From: Muribaculaceae bacterium
GTDB taxonomy: Bacteria > Bacteroidota > Bacteroidia > Bacteroidales > Muribaculaceae
Assembly: GCA_017557625.1 (NCBI GenBank)
Contig: JAFYYG010000006.1
Location: 1-50,603, forward strand
Direction: 5' to 3'
DNA: 50,603 nt
Part shown: positions 24,913 to 45,161 of the stretch, piece by piece
Numbering within the stretch: position 1 is the first letter of the stretch
How the letters are laid out: every line of letters starts with the position of its first letter
Program-made: the position numbers and the translations under genes
Notes under the pieces: model-generated
The model's database searches: none
The model's input: only the letters and a program-made list of their open reading frames with translations
Told to the model about the DNA's origin: nothing

Positions 24913-24998
24913 GAGTTTTAACGTAACTGTTCTATGGTTATTTATCGTCTCCACTAATTTTGATAAATTAGGCTGCGTCAAGGAAAAACTCAAATAAA

Positions 24999-25030
24999 TT
25001 TGTTTTTTCTCTCAACTTGCACTAATTTTG
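24999..25030 (+). promoter_or_regulatory. Promoter of dnaG
   Basis: TTTG (24999-25002), 20-nt spacer, TAATTTTG (25023-25030). The box ends 5 nt before the ATG at 25036, so the transcript should be leaderless or nearly so. Confidence 0.6.
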
Positions 25031-25035
25031 TAGTC

Positions 25036-27366
25036 ATGATTGACAGGGAGACTGTAGATAGGATTCTTGACACTGCAGATATAGTGGATGTTGTGTCAGA
25101 TTTCGTGAGTTTGCGCCGTAGTGGTGCGAACTTCAAAGGTCTGTGCCCGTTCCACGACGAGAAGACGCCATCGTTCATGGTATCGCCAGCCAAGCAGATT
25201 TGTCACTGCTTTGGATGCGGCAAGGGCGGCAGTCCCGTTAACTTCATCATGGAGCATGAGCAGATGTCCTACGTAGAGGCCCTGCGCTATCTTGCCAAGA
25301 AATACAATATCGAAATCCACGAGAAGGAGCTCACCAACGAGGAAAAGGCAGCCCAAACTGAGCGTGAGAGTATGCTCATCATCAACGAATTTGCCTCGCA
25401 ATGGTTTGAGGACCAACTCTTCAACACTCAAGAAGGCAAAGACATTGGTTTGAGCTATTTCTACGAGCGCGGCTTCAACGATGCCATCATCAAGAAGTTC
25501 CATCTGGGATTTTCCCCTCAAGACAGCAAGGCGCTTTACACTGCCGCTACAGGAAAGGGTTACAACAAGCAAAACCTCTTCAATGTGGGCCTGTGTATCG
25601 ATGACCGCCGCGGTGGAGGCTATGACCGCTTCCATGGGCGCGTGATGTTCCCAGTGGTGAACATCGCCGGCAAAATCATCGCATTTGGCGGACGCACTCT
25701 TAAGAAGACTAAAGAAATAGCAAAATACTTAAACTCGCCCGAATCGACAGTCTATGTCAAGAACCGCGAGCTTTACGGACTATTCCACTCAAAGCGTGCC
25801 ATCGTCAAGGAAGACAAGTGTTTCCTTGTGGAGGGCTATACCGATGTCATCTCGATGCACCAGGCGGGCATTGAAAATGTGGTTGCATCGAGCGGCACTT
25901 CGTTGACCGAAGGCCAGATTAGAGCCATCCACCGCTTCACCAAGAATGTGACGGTTCTATACGACGGCGATTCGGCGGGCATAAATGCCTCGCTGCGAGG
26001 CATTGACATGCTGCTTGCCGAGGGACTGAATATCAAAGTGCTTCTCCTGCCCGAGGGCGAAGACCCTGACAGCTTTGCCCGAAGTCACAGCGCAAGCGAG
26101 TTCAAGCAGTATATAGCCGACAACGAGACTGATTTCATCAGCTTCAAGGTAAAAATACTGCTTGAGGGCACCGAGCGCGACCCCATCAAGCGCGCCGCCG
26201 TGATTGGCGATGTGGTGAAGTCCATTTCGGTAATCCCCGATGCAATTACTCGCTCAGTATATGCCAAGGAGTGCAGCATCCAGCTGGGCATCGGCGAAGA
26301 AGTGCTGTTACAGGACATTAAAAAGAATATCTTGCGTCTCAAAGAGGAAGCCCGCAAACGGCGTGAGCGAGAGAAAAATCGTGAAGACCGAAGGCAAAAC
26401 CACCAACAGCCCGCCGTTGAGGATTTCCCAAGCCAAGATGTGGTACCCGACACGGCACCACCATACATTGCTCCACCGATTGGCGAGGACAAAGCTACCT
26501 TCGACACCGAGCCGCCGGTTATCGACGCACCGCCAGCTAACATGGATTTTGAAGACAGCACGCACACAGTCACCACTCCCCCACCCACAGTTGATGACAC
26601 ATCACACTACGTGGCGAAGCAAACCAACAAAGAAAGCGTGCTATACCTTGCCGAAAAAGGCGTGATGAGCAACATCGTGAAATATGGTTTGTGCTATCTG
26701 TGTGTGAACAACGACCCTGACGGCAATCCCCAGCCCATCTCAGTTTTGGAGTATATCAGCAGCGAGTTTGCTCTCGACAATATAGACTTCACCATCAATG
26801 CTTTCAAAAAGACCTTTGACGCCAGTCTGCAATATGTGGACGAGTTCTACCAGGCTTTAGCGACGTTTGAGAGTCAACAACACGCTTATGCTGAGGAAGA
26901 GTATAAAAAGGCTCTTGCAACAATCAATCCCGATGGCATGACAGTTGCCACCATCGACAAAAAAGAAAAAGAGATATTGAAGGGCATCAACAATGAATTG
27001 GATGCTAAAATCAAGGAGTTCCGCAAGAACTATCTGGAGAAGAAGCTGTGCTCGCACTTCGACGATGAAGTGCGTGCCACTGCCCTATCGCTCGTGAGCG
27101 ACAAGCACCAACTGAGTAAAATCTACTCGATGGAGAACATTGAACAATCCATTGAAAGCCGCTTAGTCACTATCATCCCCGAGGCAATCAACAACCTAAA
27201 GAACTCCATCCTTAATTACGAAATCCTCGTCATTAAAGAGCAAATGAAGCATGCACAAGGCGAAGACGCACACAACCTGATGACGCAGCTCCAAAACCTC
27301 TACCAAACCCGCAAAGAATTAGCCAAATTCATTGGCGAGCGAGTGGTAAACCCAAAGATTAAGTAG
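25036..27366 (+). CDS. dnaG: DNA primase
   Basis: Synthesises RNA primers at the replication fork with DnaB helicase. 776 aa from the ATG at 25036; an upstream in-frame TTG at 25000 lies inside the promoter. The CHC2 zinc motif is C37-x2-H40...C58-x2-C61 (CPFH, CFGC). The TOPRIM core has VEGYTDVISMHQAG and LYDGDSAGINAS. It is longer than E. coli DnaG (581 aa): residues about 450-535 are a charged then Pro/Thr-rich linker (PPYIAPPIGEDK; TTPPPTVDD). The C-terminal helical part should bind DnaB. Convergent with the dockerin gene; only 11 bp separate the stops. Confidence 0.96.
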   Translation: MIDRETVDRILDTADIVDVVSDFVSLRRSGANFKGLCPFHDEKTPSFMVSPAKQICHCFGCGKGGSPVNFIMEHEQMSYVEALRYLAKKYNIEIHEKELTNEEKAAQTERESMLIINEFASQWFEDQLFNTQEGKDIGLSYFYERGFNDAIIKKFHLGFSPQDSKALYTAATGKGYNKQNLFNVGLCIDDRRGGGYDRFHGRVMFPVVNIAGKIIAFGGRTLKKTKEIAKYLNSPESTVYVKNRELYGLFHSKRAIVKEDKCFLVEGYTDVISMHQAGIENVVASSGTSLTEGQIRAIHRFTKNVTVLYDGDSAGINASLRGIDMLLAEGLNIKVLLLPEGEDPDSFARSHSASEFKQYIADNETDFISFKVKILLEGTERDPIKRAAVIGDVVKSISVIPDAITRSVYAKECSIQLGIGEEVLLQDIKKNILRLKEEARKRREREKNREDRRQNHQQPAVEDFPSQDVVPDTAPPYIAPPIGEDKATFDTEPPVIDAPPANMDFEDSTHTVTTPPPTVDDTSHYVAKQTNKESVLYLAEKGVMSNIVKYGLCYLCVNNDPDGNPQPISVLEYISSEFALDNIDFTINAFKKTFDASLQYVDEFYQALATFESQQHAYAEEEYKKALATINPDGMTVATIDKKEKEILKGINNELDAKIKEFRKNYLEKKLCSHFDDEVRATALSLVSDKHQLSKIYSMENIEQSIESRLVTIIPEAINNLKNSILNYEILVIKEQMKHAQGEDAHNLMTQLQNLYQTRKELAKFIGERVVNPKIK

Positions 27367-27377
27367 TAAGTGTTAGG

Positions 27378-29915
27378 TTATTGTCTCGTAAGCACTGCAT
27401 GGCTGTTGCCGTTATAGGTGAGGAAGAATTGTACGAGATAAGCACCAGGAGAAGCAACTGTCAAGTTGGCTCCACCTTCCACTATATTATTGAGTGTGCC
27501 ACCCCAGTTGAGGGTCCAGTCATGGTTGGCACGGAACTTGAATTCTCCTTTATTCAGCACCATATAAGTTTCCCAAGCACCTATGCTTTGGTTATAGGTC
27601 AAGTCAACGTCCGTTGCCCACTGAGTTCCTTGTTGCACTGCACTACCAATAACACTCACGCTTGAGATTGTGCTGAGGTTGTAATGAAGAGCGGTCAAAT
27701 CAACATCAACCTTATAGAACCCCTGCGGCGCATAGAGGTTATAACCACTTGCAACAAGGTTGCCACTCATGGCATTACTTTGATAGCTTTCAGTTCCCCA
27801 ATTTGTTCCATCCCAACTGTCCTCATACTGCCTGAACTTGAAATCGGTGTTCAAGAACATGTAACCAATGTAAGTGCCGTCATTATTCAACGAAAGGCCC
27901 GCAGCGGGATTACCCCAGTTATTGGCAACACCCGCTTGCCAAATTGTGCCCGGCAATTCACAACCTTCGATTGTATAGGTCTTATAGCCCAAGTCTATAT
28001 TCACCTCATACTGACTCATTTGAGAATCATAAGGGATCAAGAAATATCCACTCTTTCCAAACCCAAACGAGCCATTAGTGGCGGTAATATCATAGTCGTA
28101 GGGAGAAGTAATCATGTCGGCTTCTGTGCTCGACGACTCGGGAGCAATCTTGAAATAAATGTCGCTATCGCCCGCAGGAATTGTCGCCTTGTAGGTGTTT
28201 AAACTTGTTGGGGTCATAGCAATAGTCTGTCCACTACCATAGCTTTCAATATTGATTGAATAGTTCTCTATAAGCACAGGTATGTCGATTGTATTGGAGG
28301 ATATTGTTACACCACCCAGATGCCCCTCCACATGGCAGTATAGATGACAGCCACCTGTGCGGGGACGGTTATAGGCACTGAACACGGCTTCTTTCAACTC
28401 ATTGAGGTTAACCCAACCGTTATGATCAATCGCCACTGATTTGTTGCCAAACACCAGTGTGAGGTCTCCCTCAATGTCGGTAGAGATGGTACACAACCTG
28501 CGAGTTGTGCTACTGGCATAGTTTAAAGTGAGATCGATATATTCTCCCACATCACATTTGGTGATATTCAAATAATTGGAGCCGACTAATCCGTTTTGGG
28601 TATCAATAAACATATAGTCGCCCGAGAGGTCGTTGAAATAGACATAATAGGAACCAGTCTTAGCGGGAATATTGTAACCTCCTTGATAACCCTTTCCGTA
28701 TGGGAACTCATTGGTACCCCAGTCGTAGTCCCAATTGCCAGGGGCAAACTTCAACTCACTGTCACTGCTGATTCCAAAATAGCGATACCAGTCATGGTTA
28801 TCGCTTGTGCCAATTGCAGTCATGGCATCGTTCTCTACCAACCATCCTTGATAGGCTCCTGGCATAGTGATTGTGTTGTAAGATGCTTGAATGTCGCTCA
28901 ATCGAGTCATTGTCATAGTCTTGTAAACGGTGTTAAGCTTTATCTTGAAATAGCCGCCCTGATTAATAACAATGTTGTCAGGATAGCTTGAGGTGTTACC
29001 CGAATACACCTGTCCGCCATTCTCATTGCCACCACCTATCACTTTCTCCCAACTGCCTGGGTTCTCAATTAGTTTGAACTCACCGCCAGTGGGGAAATAG
29101 CCATAATACTCGAGATATCCCTCGCCATTCTCGTTATAGGTAGCACCCTGAACAGGATACAAAGGCACCATGCCCATGTTGCCACATGCTGGATTGCTAT
29201 TAGTCCAGTGGTTAGTGCCTATGAAGCTTCCAGTAAGCCACCACAGTTTTATTGGCTGAGACGACTCAAAGGAGAGCTGCGGCATGAATATAAACGATTT
29301 CTCATTGCTGATAATGACATCCTCGCCATTATCAAGTTTCACTTCTACCCTTGCAACAAGATTCATGCTAGTAGGAACATCACTTGGCGAAGACCAGCCC
29401 AGTTCGGTCCTGAACATCTCCGACATTGATTCATAGCTTATCGTTGTGCTTGTGCTGCCACTCACATCAAGGTAACAATAAGTCCTGAAGGTATCGTCAG
29501 TGCCTATCACAAGCATATACACAGGATTTTCCACGTCATAACCTAATGTGGTGACATCATCCCAAGTGAACTTGAAATACTCACGGGGGAGATAGTTGGC
29601 GACACTCAGGTTGAAAGCATCGAAGATGGAGCTATATAAACCACCGTCAAGAATCACATTATATATCATAGTGACATCAACAGTCGTCACCGAGCCATCC
29701 AGATTCACGTCGCAATCGTAGCCCGACACATCTCTGGTGCCTAGAAGATAATTATAAACAATAGTGACATCATTAACAGTCACTGCACCATCATGATTGA
29801 CATCACAACGGCCCAGAAATCCGTTATATACCGTTCCAGTAACCGCCTCAGCATGAGGAGCGACCAAAACAACTAAAGCCAAAACAAGGCCTGCCAAGTG
29901 TAAAATCCGTTTCAT
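27378..29915 (-). CDS. Secreted dockerin / SusE-SusF-like multidomain protein 1
   Basis: 845 aa with a signal peptide (residues 1-24, ending HAEA) and no lipobox. Two dockerin type I calcium loops follow at 38-50 (DVNHDGAVTVNDV) and 69-81 (DVNLDGSVTTVDV). Then come several SusE/SusF-type beta-sandwich modules that in relatives bind starch-like glycans: one with LWWLTGSFIGTNHW, one with ITMPGAYQGWLVEND and YVYFNDLSGDYMFID, and a C-terminal one with GEFKFRANHDWTLNWGG. An extra EF-hand-like loop (IDHNGWVNLNELKE) lies near mid-protein. It is a close full-length paralogue of 36900-39392. No SusC/SusD or cohesin is in the window, so the anchoring partner is unknown. Confidence 0.85.
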   Translation of the reverse strand: MKRILHLAGLVLALVVLVAPHAEAVTGTVYNGFLGRCDVNHDGAVTVNDVTIVYNYLLGTRDVSGYDCDVNLDGSVTTVDVTMIYNVILDGGLYSSIFDAFNLSVANYLPREYFKFTWDDVTTLGYDVENPVYMLVIGTDDTFRTYCYLDVSGSTSTTISYESMSEMFRTELGWSSPSDVPTSMNLVARVEVKLDNGEDVIISNEKSFIFMPQLSFESSQPIKLWWLTGSFIGTNHWTNSNPACGNMGMVPLYPVQGATYNENGEGYLEYYGYFPTGGEFKLIENPGSWEKVIGGGNENGGQVYSGNTSSYPDNIVINQGGYFKIKLNTVYKTMTMTRLSDIQASYNTITMPGAYQGWLVENDAMTAIGTSDNHDWYRYFGISSDSELKFAPGNWDYDWGTNEFPYGKGYQGGYNIPAKTGSYYVYFNDLSGDYMFIDTQNGLVGSNYLNITKCDVGEYIDLTLNYASSTTRRLCTISTDIEGDLTLVFGNKSVAIDHNGWVNLNELKEAVFSAYNRPRTGGCHLYCHVEGHLGGVTISSNTIDIPVLIENYSINIESYGSGQTIAMTPTSLNTYKATIPAGDSDIYFKIAPESSSTEADMITSPYDYDITATNGSFGFGKSGYFLIPYDSQMSQYEVNIDLGYKTYTIEGCELPGTIWQAGVANNWGNPAAGLSLNNDGTYIGYMFLNTDFKFRQYEDSWDGTNWGTESYQSNAMSGNLVASGYNLYAPQGFYKVDVDLTALHYNLSTISSVSVIGSAVQQGTQWATDVDLTYNQSIGAWETYMVLNKGEFKFRANHDWTLNWGGTLNNIVEGGANLTVASPGAYLVQFFLTYNGNSHAVLTRQ

Positions 29916-29946
29916 AGCTATATCTTTTTGATTTTTATTTCATTTT

Positions 29947-30090
29947 GCAAAAATAGTGCAAGCCGAGAGAAATACAAAATGAAAAGCGAAGTTTTTCATT
30001 ATTATTGCCGAGGTGCCGCCTATTATATCCAATAATAGTGCAAGCCGAATACAATACAAATGAAAAGCGAAGTTTTTCATTTGTATGAGG
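29947..30090 (-). repeat. Two tandem 82-bp promoter-bearing repeat units (locus A)
   Basis: Unit 1 begins at 29948 and unit 2 at 30030, an 82-bp period. Each reads (plus strand) a -7 complement, AGTGCAAGCCGA, then a -33 complement, then a palindrome around the loop GCGAAG. In unit 2 the palindrome arms are 12 bp (30055-30066 and 30074-30085). Unit 1 ends with GAGGTGCCGCCTATTATATCC. The same repeat occurs at 44746 before rnr. Confidence 0.85.
29948..29978 (-). promoter_or_regulatory. Promoter of dockerin gene 1, inside repeat unit 1
   Basis: On the minus strand TTTG (29975-29978), 19 nt, TATTTTTG (29948-29955): full consensus, 33 bp from the ATG. Unit 2 keeps a TTTG (30057-30060) with 19-nt spacing to TATTATTG (30030-30037), one mismatch, so a second weaker promoter may lie upstream. 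Confidence 0.65.
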
Positions 30091-30143
30091 GCTCAATCTT
30101 CTTGAATTTTGTTTTTAATTGTTGGTAATTGTTTGACAAGAAT

Positions 30144-36899: not shown

Positions 36900-39392
36900 T
36901 TACTGTCTTATGAGAGTGATGTGGCTATCACCATTATAAGTAAGGAACACCTGCACCAAATAAGGTCCTGGATGGGAAATGGTTAAGTTGGCACCGTCAG
37001 GGACTAGATTCTCGTCAGTGCCGCCCCAATTGAGATACCAGTTATGGTTGGCGCGGATTTTATACTCGCCTCTGTTGAGTACATATATTCCTTCCCATGC
37101 TCCTGTGTTCTGGTTATAGGTCAAGTCGAGGTCAGTGCCCCATTGAGTGCCTGTAGGCACTGCGCTGCCAATGATGCTAACACTCGAGATGGCTGTGAGA
37201 TAATAACTGAGATTGGGGATGTTGACATCAACCTTGTAAAATCCAACCGTAGCATATAGATTGTTGCCGTTTTCCATTAGTGTACCGGCATTAGAGCCTT
37301 GCCCCCAAGTCTTGCCATCCCAGTTGTTTTTGTTTTCCCTGAACCTGAAATCGCCATCGAGGTACATATAGCCAGTGTGTGTGCCGCTGTAGTTAATCGA
37401 CAAGCCATTAGCGGGGTTGCCCCAGTTATTGGCGTTACCAGCCTGCCATATCATGGATGACTGTTCTTTTCCTTCTATGCTATAGGTCTTATGATTAAAG
37501 TCAAGATTTACCTCATATTCTCTATATGCTTCATCATAAGGAATTTTGAAATAACCTGGATTTCCAAAGTCAAATATTCCATAAGTCTCTTCACTGTCAT
37601 ACTCACTTGGTGGAGTAATCATGTCATACTCTGCGCCAGATGATTCTGGAGCAATCTTGAAGCGGATATCACCAGCACCAGCAGGGATTATAGCCTTGTA
37701 ATAGTTTATTAAGCCATTCTCAAGAATCATATCTATTCTCTCGCCTGTGTCGGCAATGACAATCGAATAGTTCTCAAGCACAACGGGAATAGAGATATCG
37801 TTGGATTTCACCGCAACATTTCCCGACCGGGCTTCAACATGGGCTTTGAGAGCGCATCCTCCAGTGCGAGGGGGATAGTAGGTATCAAGCACTACCTGCT
37901 TGAGGTCGAAAAGGTCAACCATGCCGTCTCGGTCAATCTCTAGTTCCTCGTTGTCGAAACACAGCATATAATATCCGTCAATGGTTGTGACAATATCGCA
38001 CACCTTAACCTTTGTGCCCGGACTAACATCAGCGGTGAGGTCGAGGCAATCACCCTCCACATTCTTGGTAATCTTCAGGTAATTGGTGCCAGGTAGTCCA
38101 TCATTATCTATAAACATGTAGTCACCCGAGAGGTCGTTGAAATATACTTCATAAGTGCCGGCTTTTGTTGGAATATTGGCACCATCCTGAATTCCTTGAC
38201 CATAGGGAAACTCAGCAAGTCCCCAGTTGTGGTCCCAACTGCCCGCAGCAAACTTCAACTCGCTGTCGGCATCAAGGGTTACCGAGGCATGCCAATCATG
38301 ATTGTCGGTTGATGACATGGCTGTCATAGCATTGCCCGCCACATTCCAGTCTTGATATCCACCAGGCATAGTGATGGTGCTGAATGATGCCTGATCATCG
38401 GCAAGACGGGTCATCGTCATAGTTTTATCAACAGGATTAAGGTCGATTTTATAGTATCCGCCTTGAGTGATATGGATGTTATCGGAGGCTCCCGAAAAGA
38501 CCTGACCACCATTTTCGTCACCGCCACCTATGGCCGTACTCCAATCTCCAGGTGTTTTTATTATCGTAAACTCTCCACCAGTAGGGAAATAGCCATAATA
38601 TTCAAGTGGACCCTCGCCATTCCTGTTGTAAGTAGCTCCTTGCACAGGATACATAGGCACTAAACCAAGACCATAGGGTGTATTCGACCAGTGGTTTATG
38701 CCTACAAAACTGCCAATAAGCCACCACAACTGGATAGGTTTAGAAGAAGTAAACTCGGTGTAAGGCACATAATCAAACTCCAACTCTTTGCTTATAAGCA
38801 CCTCTTTATTGTTGATTTGCACTTCCACTCTGGCATAGAGAGGAATATGTTCAGGAACATCTTCAGGATTGTTCCAATGGAACTTATATTGCAACCACTC
38901 TGTTATATCCTGTGGCTGTATATTATTCTCATTAGTGCCTGAGTGAGAGCAATAATAATTTTGATATGTGGTGATGGATTCGGTAGATAGCAACAGCATG
39001 TAATCGAGAGTAGTCACTCCGTTCTCGGCAGCCACATCATCCCAATAGAAATGATACCAGTCATGATATTCACCATCATCGATATCAAGATATTCAAGAT
39101 TCAAATCAAAAGCATCACTTATAGAAACATATTGACTTTTTCCGAGCAAAACATCATAAATCAGAGTCACATCGGCTGCGGTGACATAGCCATCATGATT
39201 GGTATCACAAAGCAAGTTGTTGCCAGAAGCACCCAACAGATAATCATAGATTGCTGTGACATCACTGGCGGTCACTGTGCCATCCTGATTCACGTCACAC
39301 TGGCGATAGAGATAGTCAATTACTGTAACAGAACCACTTGCCGATGCGGATATCATCAGCAATCCCAGCAAGGTAAAAATTTTTCTTTTCAT
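36900..39392 (-). CDS. Secreted dockerin / SusE-SusF-like multidomain protein 2
   Basis: 830 aa from the ATG at 39392, whose product begins with a proper signal peptide (MKRKIFTLLGLLMISASASG); an in-frame start 14 codons upstream would spoil it. Dockerin loops lie at 33-45 (DVNQDGTVTASDV) and 63-75 (DTNHDGYVTAADV). Tandem SusE-like modules follow (LWWLIGSFVGINHW; ITMPGGYQDWNVAGN; YEVYFNDLSGDYMFID; GEYKIRANHNWYLNWGG), with an internal EF-hand-like loop (IDRDGMVDLFDLKQ). It is collinear with 27378-29915 throughout, so the two arose by duplication and then flanked the envelope cluster. Probably surface or secreted glycan binding; neither catalytic residues nor a lipobox is seen. Confidence 0.85.
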   Translation of the reverse strand: MKRKIFTLLGLLMISASASGSVTVIDYLYRQCDVNQDGTVTASDVTAIYDYLLGASGNNLLCDTNHDGYVTAADVTLIYDVLLGKSQYVSISDAFDLNLEYLDIDDGEYHDWYHFYWDDVAAENGVTTLDYMLLLSTESITTYQNYYCSHSGTNENNIQPQDITEWLQYKFHWNNPEDVPEHIPLYARVEVQINNKEVLISKELEFDYVPYTEFTSSKPIQLWWLIGSFVGINHWSNTPYGLGLVPMYPVQGATYNRNGEGPLEYYGYFPTGGEFTIIKTPGDWSTAIGGGDENGGQVFSGASDNIHITQGGYYKIDLNPVDKTMTMTRLADDQASFSTITMPGGYQDWNVAGNAMTAMSSTDNHDWHASVTLDADSELKFAAGSWDHNWGLAEFPYGQGIQDGANIPTKAGTYEVYFNDLSGDYMFIDNDGLPGTNYLKITKNVEGDCLDLTADVSPGTKVKVCDIVTTIDGYYMLCFDNEELEIDRDGMVDLFDLKQVVLDTYYPPRTGGCALKAHVEARSGNVAVKSNDISIPVVLENYSIVIADTGERIDMILENGLINYYKAIIPAGAGDIRFKIAPESSGAEYDMITPPSEYDSEETYGIFDFGNPGYFKIPYDEAYREYEVNLDFNHKTYSIEGKEQSSMIWQAGNANNWGNPANGLSINYSGTHTGYMYLDGDFRFRENKNNWDGKTWGQGSNAGTLMENGNNLYATVGFYKVDVNIPNLSYYLTAISSVSIIGSAVPTGTQWGTDLDLTYNQNTGAWEGIYVLNRGEYKIRANHNWYLNWGGTDENLVPDGANLTISHPGPYLVQVFLTYNGDSHITLIRQ

Positions 39393-39465
39393 ATCATTTA
39401 TGTTTTTGTGGTGGCAAAACAATTTGAACGCCACGAAGTTAGCAATAATTCTTCACTCTCGGCGG

Positions 39466-44717: not shown

Positions 44718-44744
44718 AATTAGTTAGTAAAAGGTTATGATAAT

Positions 44745-44858
44745 GCAAAATTAGTGCAAGCCGAATACAATACAAAATAAAAAGCGAAGTTTTTTATTTT
44801 TATTGTTGAGGCGCAGCCTGATTTATCCAAAATTAGTGCAAGCCGAATACAATACAAC
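44745..44858 (-). repeat. 82-bp promoter-bearing repeat units (locus B)
   Basis: Unit 1 starts at 44746 and unit 2 at 44828, again an 82-bp period. The unit 1 palindrome is AAAATAAAAA (44774-44783), loop GCGAAGT, TTTTTATTTT (44791-44800). Relative to locus A, a G-C pair in the stem is an A-T pair here, so both arms changed together. Unit 2 is cut at 44858 by a MITE-like element and resumes at 45031-45061 (right arm TTTTATTT, then ACGCAGCCTGATTTATCC). Confidence 0.85.
44746..44776 (-). promoter_or_regulatory. Promoter of rnr, inside repeat unit 1
   Basis: Minus strand TTTG (44773-44776), 19 nt, TAATTTTG (44746-44753): full consensus, 28 bp before the rnr ATG. Unit 2 keeps TAATTTTG (44828-44835) and a TTG (44855-44857) at the same spacing, a possible second upstream promoter. 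Confidence 0.65.
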
Positions 44859-45030
44859 AGGGTGTGTCAAAATTCTGGTTTAGTGCGCTTCGCGCAGAAA
44901 TCAAACAAATCTATGTCAAATCAATCATTATTTAATAAAATGATTTCTAATAAAATATATATTTGTTTGATTTGGAAATATTTGAATGATTTCTCACGCA
45001 TAGCGTGACTCCTCTTTTTTGACACACCCT
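44859..45030. mobile_element. 172-bp MITE-like element with 14-bp terminal inverted repeats
   Basis: AGGGTGTGTCAAAA (44859-44872) and TTTTGACACACCCT (45017-45030) are perfect inverted repeats. Inside are further inverted pairs: AAATCAAACAAAT/ATTTGTTTGATTT (44898-44910, 44961-44973), AATCATT/AATGATT (44923-44929, 44939-44945), and terminal-proximal hairpins GCGC-TTC-GCGC (44885-44895) and CACGC-ATA-GCGTG (44995-45007). No ORF. It sits inside unit 2 of the 82-bp repeat; no clear target duplication is visible, and about 14 bp of the unit are missing. Confidence 0.8.
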
Positions 45031-45161
45031 TTTTATTTCCGAAACGCAGCCTGATTTATCCTTTTTTTAAAAAAAACTATACTACGAAATATGCTATGCC
45101 AAAAACTGATTCGCATGCAGATTCAATGCAATTTTTCTAAACTCAAAAATCAATATTCTTG

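Follow-up and report, generated by a model that had tools for sequence, protein, structure and literature searches.

A repeat dispersed through the genome of a Muribaculaceae bacterium (assembly GCA_017557625.1, contig JAFYYG010000006.1) is probably a non-autonomous mobile promoter of the REP/MITE type, which inserts after TTT(G) and is recognised, most plausibly, as folded single-stranded DNA. As proposed, it is a ~70–90 bp repeat of which one DNA strand would fold into a bulged hairpin, with a sigma-ABfr-type promoter forming the 3' end. The window, that is, the whole analysed stretch of 50,603 nucleotides, contains three loci of this repeat (Table 1). A preliminary description had found two of them, upstream of a dockerin gene and of rnr, each with two units 82 bp apart. 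Both are real and carry their -7 boxes at the expected positions, but a third, upstream of dnaG on the other strand, had been missed. There the dnaG ORF of the program-made list begins at 25000, within the promoter unit.

The dockerin-side and rnr-side loci share a 114-nt block with 85% identity. The 16-nt core has three exact matches and five with up to three mismatches, compared to 0.48 expected, and five were reached in none of 100 shuffles. By eye, the distance between the -33-like and -7-like elements is 19 nt in 4/4 units of these loci, as first reported, with GTTG rather than TTTG at the -33-like position of unit 2b. Between the two loci a stem base pair has indeed changed from G-C to A-T on both arms. 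The palindrome attributed to all four units is the centre of a hairpin in the others but is missing from unit 2b because a 170-bp inverted-repeat element, separate from the promoter unit, sits within it. Ends resembling those of the 170-bp element were seen by eye in L028 and L207, and it seems to be present elsewhere in the genome. The 82-bp tandem, originally taken as the unit, reflects a real but secondary spacing that arises where copies abut; most of 30 loci in this genome consist of a single full copy. Elsewhere in the window, the long ORFs at 27378–29915 and 36900–39434 are similar in length and contain diverged repeat blocks of 67–75% identity. They are probably paralogous dockerin genes, with the unit only before the first.

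Table 1. Promoter units and associated features in the window.
Feature	Position	Strand	Remarks
Unit 1a, full, before dockerin gene	29945..30030	-	profile match, 78 bits
Unit 1a, -7 box TATTTTTG	29955-29948	-	
Unit 1a, -33 TTTG	29978-29975	-	
Unit 1a, inner palindrome	29979-29999	-	
Unit 1b, without left end	30030..30092	-	profile match, 43 bits
Unit 1b, -7-like TATTATTG	30037-30030	-	
Unit 1b, -33 TTTG	30060-30057	-	
Unit 2a, full, before rnr	44743..44828	-	profile match, 71 bits
Unit 2a, -7 box TAATTTTG	44753-44746	-	
Unit 2a, -33 TTTG	44776-44773	-	
Unit 2b, right part	44828..44858	-	19 bits
Unit 2b, -7 box TAATTTTG	44835-44828	-	
Unit 2b, left part	45030..45060	-	15 bits; separated from right part by the 170-bp insertion
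170-bp inverted-repeat element in unit 2b	44860..45029	.	perfect 10-bp ends GGGTGTGTCA/TGACACACCC, by eye
Third copy, short inner hairpin, before dnaG	24961..25033	+	profile match
Third copy, -33 TTTG	24999-25002	+	20 nt to -7 box
Third copy, -7 box TAATTTTG	25023-25030	+	ATG at 25036
Dockerin / SusF_SusE protein gene, 845 aa	27378..29915	-	putatively served by units 1a/1b
RNase R (rnr), 788 aa	42351..44717	-	putatively served by units 2a/2b
dnaG	25036..27366	+	identified by dnaG domains; putatively served by third copy

Read toward the gene, the unit consists of G(G)ATAAATTAGGC.GC.CCTCGG, a variable inner hairpin, TTTG, 19–20 nt holding CTCGGCTTGCAC, and then TAATTTTG. Its right end (TTTG, 19–20 nt, TAnnTTTG) is a promoter motif of the sigma-ABfr type. 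The -33 TTTG column is conserved in alignment A1 (spacing by eye), where the G is absent from L007 and L015. The palindrome first described is genuine but forms only the centre of a larger structure, since the whole unit (~70–90 bp), including the -7 box, can be folded into one bulged hairpin in which the left end pairs with the unit's own -7 box. The ends are not identical repeats; they pair over 7–9 bp with a bulge, and the pairing continues as the hairpin. Single strands of L006, L019 and L028 fold end to end with both RNA and DNA energies, while L001 and L012 do so with RNA energies and partially with DNA (the letters of L012 being inexact). A longer class has, between the left TTG and the main hairpin, a further small hairpin (L012, L016 and L049, by eye, and L083).

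The pairing was evaluated on 138 aligned copies, 136 of them distinct. RNAalifold returned only four pairs on an alignment of mixed lengths, so model R1 is approximately a sequence profile. The 19-pair outer structure used for the counts and for profile R2 was chosen from single-sequence folds and inspection; one pair in it is weak, with 52 cells unpaired. In this structure 88.5% of cells are paired, compared to 74.1 after shuffling. There are 326 two-sided changes (115.8 shuffled, 30–86 when the structure is slid), and the covariation score is 0.319 (0.122 shuffled, 0.030–0.079 slid). Kinship of the copies can lift such values above shuffles; the slid control preserves kinship, and a structure derived from these very sequences has an advantage over it. 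One-sided changes, mostly of the G-U type, occupy only 45 cells, and the compensation claimed from one base pair in the window extends to the family. The scarcity of one-sided relative to two-sided changes suggests pairing at the level of DNA rather than RNA. Exchange of letters is also apparent where the -7 box meets the left end. The fully pairing combinations among the 138 rows are ATT/AAT (53), GAT/ATC (10), TAT/ATA (8), AAT/ATT (4) and GTT/AAC (3), with TTT/AAA, AGT/ACT and GGT/ACC seen once each. Incompletely pairing combinations occur too, most commonly AAT/ATC (9), ATC/AAT (7) and CTT/AAC (4). Covariation of a -7 box with a sequence ~70 nt away is unusual, and directly testable.

In the genome of origin (3.05 Mb, 88% complete) the dockerin-region query had 43 matches with E of at most 10, of which the best 30 are loci L001–L030. 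Profile R2 gave 45 matches there and 55 in G708, a one-contig genome from a different family; most of the genomes compared are MAGs. Within the genus, R1 matches occur in 55/61 genomes, with up to 70 in one genome, and the unit was found in 33/119 genomes and 11/30 genera of the family. Draws from the order Bacteroidales contained it in 16/295 genomes with R1 and in 36/344 genomes (23/195 genera) with R2. A draw from the phylum yielded 1/247, the genome of origin itself, with R1 and strict filters that make this a weak test for distant copies. Distant copies retain the same skeleton with different letters. The left-end pattern occurs at 29, 49, 33 and 20 sites in four genomes, compared to 0, 1, 0 and 2 for the reversed control. 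Its exact form appears in 32 stretches of named records, many from rumen, all recorded as Muribaculaceae, Prevotellaceae, Porphyromonadaceae or Bacteroidales bacteria. Plasmids gave no match to the unit, and phage records gave one, in MT839029.1 (L286), which is marked UNVERIFIED and has the unit before a thioredoxin-like gene. This record is probably bacterial DNA, because a bacterial-looking ORF precedes the unit and the thioredoxin-like ORF follows it. Left-end matches in viral contigs (at least 120 stretches) were dismissed as chance matches, as none of the 80 loci examined had a profile match; the right-end pattern had no match in viral contigs.

The consensus reported for promoters of the housekeeping factor sigma-ABfr combines a -33 TTTG with a -7 TAnnTTTG (PMC7366714, PMC6847099), and the unit carries both. 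Most such promoters are not known to belong to a repeat. The motif PM2 of B. thetaiotaomicron is different, being of the -10/-30 type. At 28/30 loci of the genome of origin a same-strand ORF begins with an ATG 3–309 nt downstream, and the 28 ORFs are all different. The two loci without one are L004 and L007, and L004 is followed by a cobalamin riboswitch (RF00174) that begins at its -7 box. In L021 the unit is followed after 9 nt by a TPP aptamer, which scores 52.0 bits against a cut-off of 54.3. At L011 and L024 the ATG lies just 3 nt past the matched right end, and the short gap may reflect either a leaderless transcript or a miscalled start.

A simple gene caller applied to 95 clusters from three sets placed 33 in line with genes, 38 between divergent genes, 4 against genes, none between convergent genes, 17 at ends and 3 inside an ORF. 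When the seven exceptions were reread, six had a same-strand ORF 9–77 nt downstream and the other, L158, had only a 65-aa ORF at 111 nt. In G708 a downstream ORF follows 36/40 clusters (median 25 nt), including an RNase R-like one identified by eye, although this test is permissive: in 29/40 clusters an ORF on the opposite side also reads away from the cluster (median 136 nt). The idea of a dispersed, promoter-like cassette directed at gene starts is supported, with copies nearly always pointing toward one. Neither of the two computational counter-findings named in the preliminary description, a lack of such orientation and arm changes without compensation, was obtained. The -7 box is exact in 120/128 gene-proximal copies and in 16/33 copies lying upstream in arrays (p=1.3e-8), a difference that fits selection on a working promoter. 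An ORF of at least 60 aa lies within 200 nt of 226 of 256 gene-proximal or single copies; the other 30 have none, which indicates that non-promoter copies exist; L205 and L211 are also of this kind. Taken together, the motif and its placement strongly indicate promoter activity, and RNA polymerase would start at the element's own promoter. The further suggestion, that the repeat puts unrelated genes under common control, is not supported: no result points to co-regulation, and the motif belongs to the housekeeping sigma factor.

Evidence for mobility comes from orthologous sites. Among 60, G001 and G042 are the nearest relatives as judged by RNase R, and both were searched for the starts of the 28 genes that follow copies. 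For 26 genes this yielded 49 orthologous upstream regions, 23 filled and 26 empty, which upholds the earlier proposal of spread to new sites. Seven loci are clean, with both flanks aligning to an empty site by eye (L005, L006, L008, L017, L019, L023 and L027). At L005, for example, G001 reads ..ACTATTTTTG/C.. where the genome of origin reads ..ACTATTTTTTG/ATAAAATAGG....CACTATTTTTG/C.. (slashes marking joints), with flanks alike on both sides. The automatically placed junction falls exactly after TAnnTTTG at 13/26 empty sites, compared to 0.68% of positions in these regions; an insertion exactly after a host TAnnTTTG would rebuild the promoter in register. At the remaining 13/26 the automatic junction follows TTTG once and TTT twice, with neither at 10. 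By eye, L005 (in two relatives), L012, L013 and L017 also look like TAnnTTTG junctions, although the automatic placement put them a few bases off or elsewhere. In L008 and L027 the insertion lies at a TTTG or TTT outside any -7 box. L020 aligns poorly. Several loci keep the right flank alone, and in these the promoter region may have been replaced. At L006, L019 and L021 the inner hairpins differ between G000 and G001 at the same site, pointing to turnover at fixed sites.

The flanks of filled sites are in keeping with this target. Among 116 copies with flanks, 70 are non-tandem copies with host left flanks resembling a -7 box, and the exact TAnnTTTG is present in 30/70; in G708 it occurs in the left flank of 17/40 clusters. 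At L019 the left box TATCTTTG is the same as that of the empty relative, and the right box is the element's TAATTTTG. TTT or TTTG is present on both sides of the unit, yet it also belongs to the element's end sequence. At L027, TTTT is followed by C, which the empty site has as well, so the final base there comes from the target. The G after TTTT is kept in 208/226 copies with a nearby ORF and in 23/30 without (p=0.016, suggestive only). These joints suggest entry after TTT, with a -7 box left on each side. Insertion would take place after TTT(G), and in retained copies this sequence mostly belongs to a host promoter's -7 box, TAnnTTTG. The element begins with G and has a TAnnTTT(G) of its own as its end; a -7 box would therefore stand at both joints, the old one upstream and the new one in register with the gene. 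Further insertion at the new end would then produce head-to-tail arrays. Overall, empty sites and junctions show the mobility of the unit and its target at the level of sequence.

A search for what moves the unit covered 31 left-end sites in four genomes and found no ORF-bearing version that could be an autonomous parent, nor a parent transposon with the same ends. At 29 sites the right end lies within ~180 nt (in some by eye only) with no ORF between; at L214 and L482 it was not found nearby. The genome of origin has three RAYT-like Y1 genes (L031, L032 and L033), none flanked by the promoter unit. Each of these genes has its own palindromes, of GGGGTC.GACCCC type and CGAGACTG.GTCTCG type, unlike the promoter unit. 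In thirty Y1 loci of the genus, drawn from a longer list, L199 has a clear copy at a distance of 290 nt and L191 a partial one. A Y1 transposase as carrier finds no clear support, and its presence does not track the element in the genus: all 6/6 genomes lacking an R1 match have Y1, and six genomes lacking Y1 carry 4–46 R1 matches, with the caveat that these MAGs are incomplete. The GTAG/CGTC tag is absent from unit ends in A1. Structure is kept over letters, which favours recognition of the folded strand, and this strand would be recognised in trans by an HUH-like or other structure-reading recombinase.

Other repeats are associated with the unit at some loci. A second hairpin repeat, AATAAAATGCTC..CGCTTAATCGCATTTTT, occurs in L017, L009, L141, L205, L206 and L213; in L017 it is present four times, head to tail. 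This repeat encloses the promoter unit in L205 and L206, and the nesting is reversed in L009 and L141. At several sites in G637 (L269, L280 and L428) the promoter unit belongs to a 225-bp repeat whose ends, GTCTGTCCATAAAGTC..GACTTTATAGAC, are inverted, and is carried with it. At L269 it does not serve as a promoter, as the gene there faces it.

The main rival to recognition of a folded strand is a MITE of the conventional kind, double-stranded and with imperfect inverted repeats at its ends, which would be moved in trans by a DDE transposase, duplicate TTT or TTTG and contain a promoter incidentally. The inverted imperfect ends (AAATTAG/CTAATTT), small size, lack of an ORF, empty sites and TTTG on both sides are all consistent with such an element, and BrickBuilt of Porphyromonas gingivalis, with GAAA or AAAA duplications, is described as one (PMC4596501). 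However, the ends of the unit differ in sequence and pair with bulges, its letters are free to change if pairing is kept, and no DDE element with these ends was met among the loci read, which makes this reading rather unlikely. The unit may instead have no dedicated mobility, promoter regions being copied by short-homology recombination or template switching at the common TAnnTTTG, together with copying from arm to arm. Arm-to-arm copying would also yield two-sided changes, and the loci that conserve only the right flank, as well as the differing inner hairpins in G000 and G001, could be produced in this manner. The seven clean insertions with both flanks kept, and the two insertions outside a -7 box, argue against it, and it appears improbable.

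The palindrome directly upstream of the -33 element before many genes could also be read as an operator, bound by a transcription factor that controls them all. A regulon box of this kind is very improbable, given that the inner palindrome varies in length and letters between copies and even between orthologs, that the unit is absent from 26/49 orthologous sites, and that letters are free where pairing is kept. Selection on an RNA fold (a leader, attenuator or small RNA) would account for the strong compensatory changes, and the downstream unit of an array would be transcribed. However, one arm holds the -7 box, downstream of which transcription would be expected to start, and the rarity of one-sided changes (45 cells) speaks for DNA. 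In addition, an Rfam scan of 10 loci reached the gathering score only for the riboswitch after L004, and an RNA element is the most doubtful of the readings considered.

If the unit is a mobile promoter as proposed, many genes of gut and rumen Bacteroidales, including the housekeeping genes rnr, dnaG, leuS and secA, would be driven by inserted promoters with their register unchanged. This would let promoters turn over and tandem promoters arise by a direct route, explain a large repeat family, and offer natural filled and empty alleles for measuring the effect of promoter insertion. A more speculative extension, to which only a modest chance is given, is that the element enters the -7 region while it is melted by RNA polymerase and TAnnTTTG is single-stranded, with the left end, complementary to the element's own -7 box, acting as guide. 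In that case the promoters of Bacteroidales would themselves be transposable, insertion and transcription would be coupled, and the orientation of copies would follow from the mechanism as well as from any selection.

No description of a hairpin-promoter unit was found in the literature, where coverage of subscription papers was thin. Promoter sequences dispersed before unrelated genes have reportedly been recognised in prokaryotes as putative mobile promoters (a 2012 paper). Copies of the unit likewise precede unrelated genes, but the unit has in addition a defined structure, a defined target within the -7 box and empty sites. Its short length, many copies, lack of an ORF and insertion polymorphism are traits of MITEs. 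BrickBuilt is a dispersed intergenic MITE without a transposase of its own for which promoter activity, in both directions, is reported; it has 19 copies built of 23-nt repeats with leader and tail, 12-bp inverted ends and GAAA/AAAA duplications, and its authors make the comparison with putative mobile promoters themselves (PMC4596501). The two share their occurrence in Bacteroidales, dispersed intergenic location, absence of an own transposase, filled and empty sites, and tandem sub-repeats. BrickBuilt is, however, not one covarying hairpin, and the accessible part of its description does not mention entry into -7 boxes; conversely, no 23-nt internal repeat was seen in the units, each being one hairpin.

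REPs and REPINs are short bulged hairpins with many intergenic copies that are moved in trans and contain no ORF, and Bacteroidetes RAYTs with atypical flanking structures are known as subclass 2.6 (PMC6006769, PMC3733652). The unit resembles them as an imperfect palindrome with a conserved fold, many copies and no ORF, but differs, as far as the accessible accounts go, in lacking the GTAG/CGTC tag, in not flanking the RAYT-like genes of its own genome, and in carrying a promoter in one orientation toward genes. Internal bases of the unit can pair with its end, as those of IS608 do. Hairpin ends and insertion beside a short fixed sequence are further features that the unit has in common with the IS200/IS605 group of single-strand insertion sequences (PMC6006769), from which it differs in having no transposase inside or beside it and in that one hairpin is the whole element. 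Judged by its sequence, the unit is a promoter-bearing REP/MITE-like repeat, unusual in that the host -7 box would serve as the entry point and would also belong to what the element carries.
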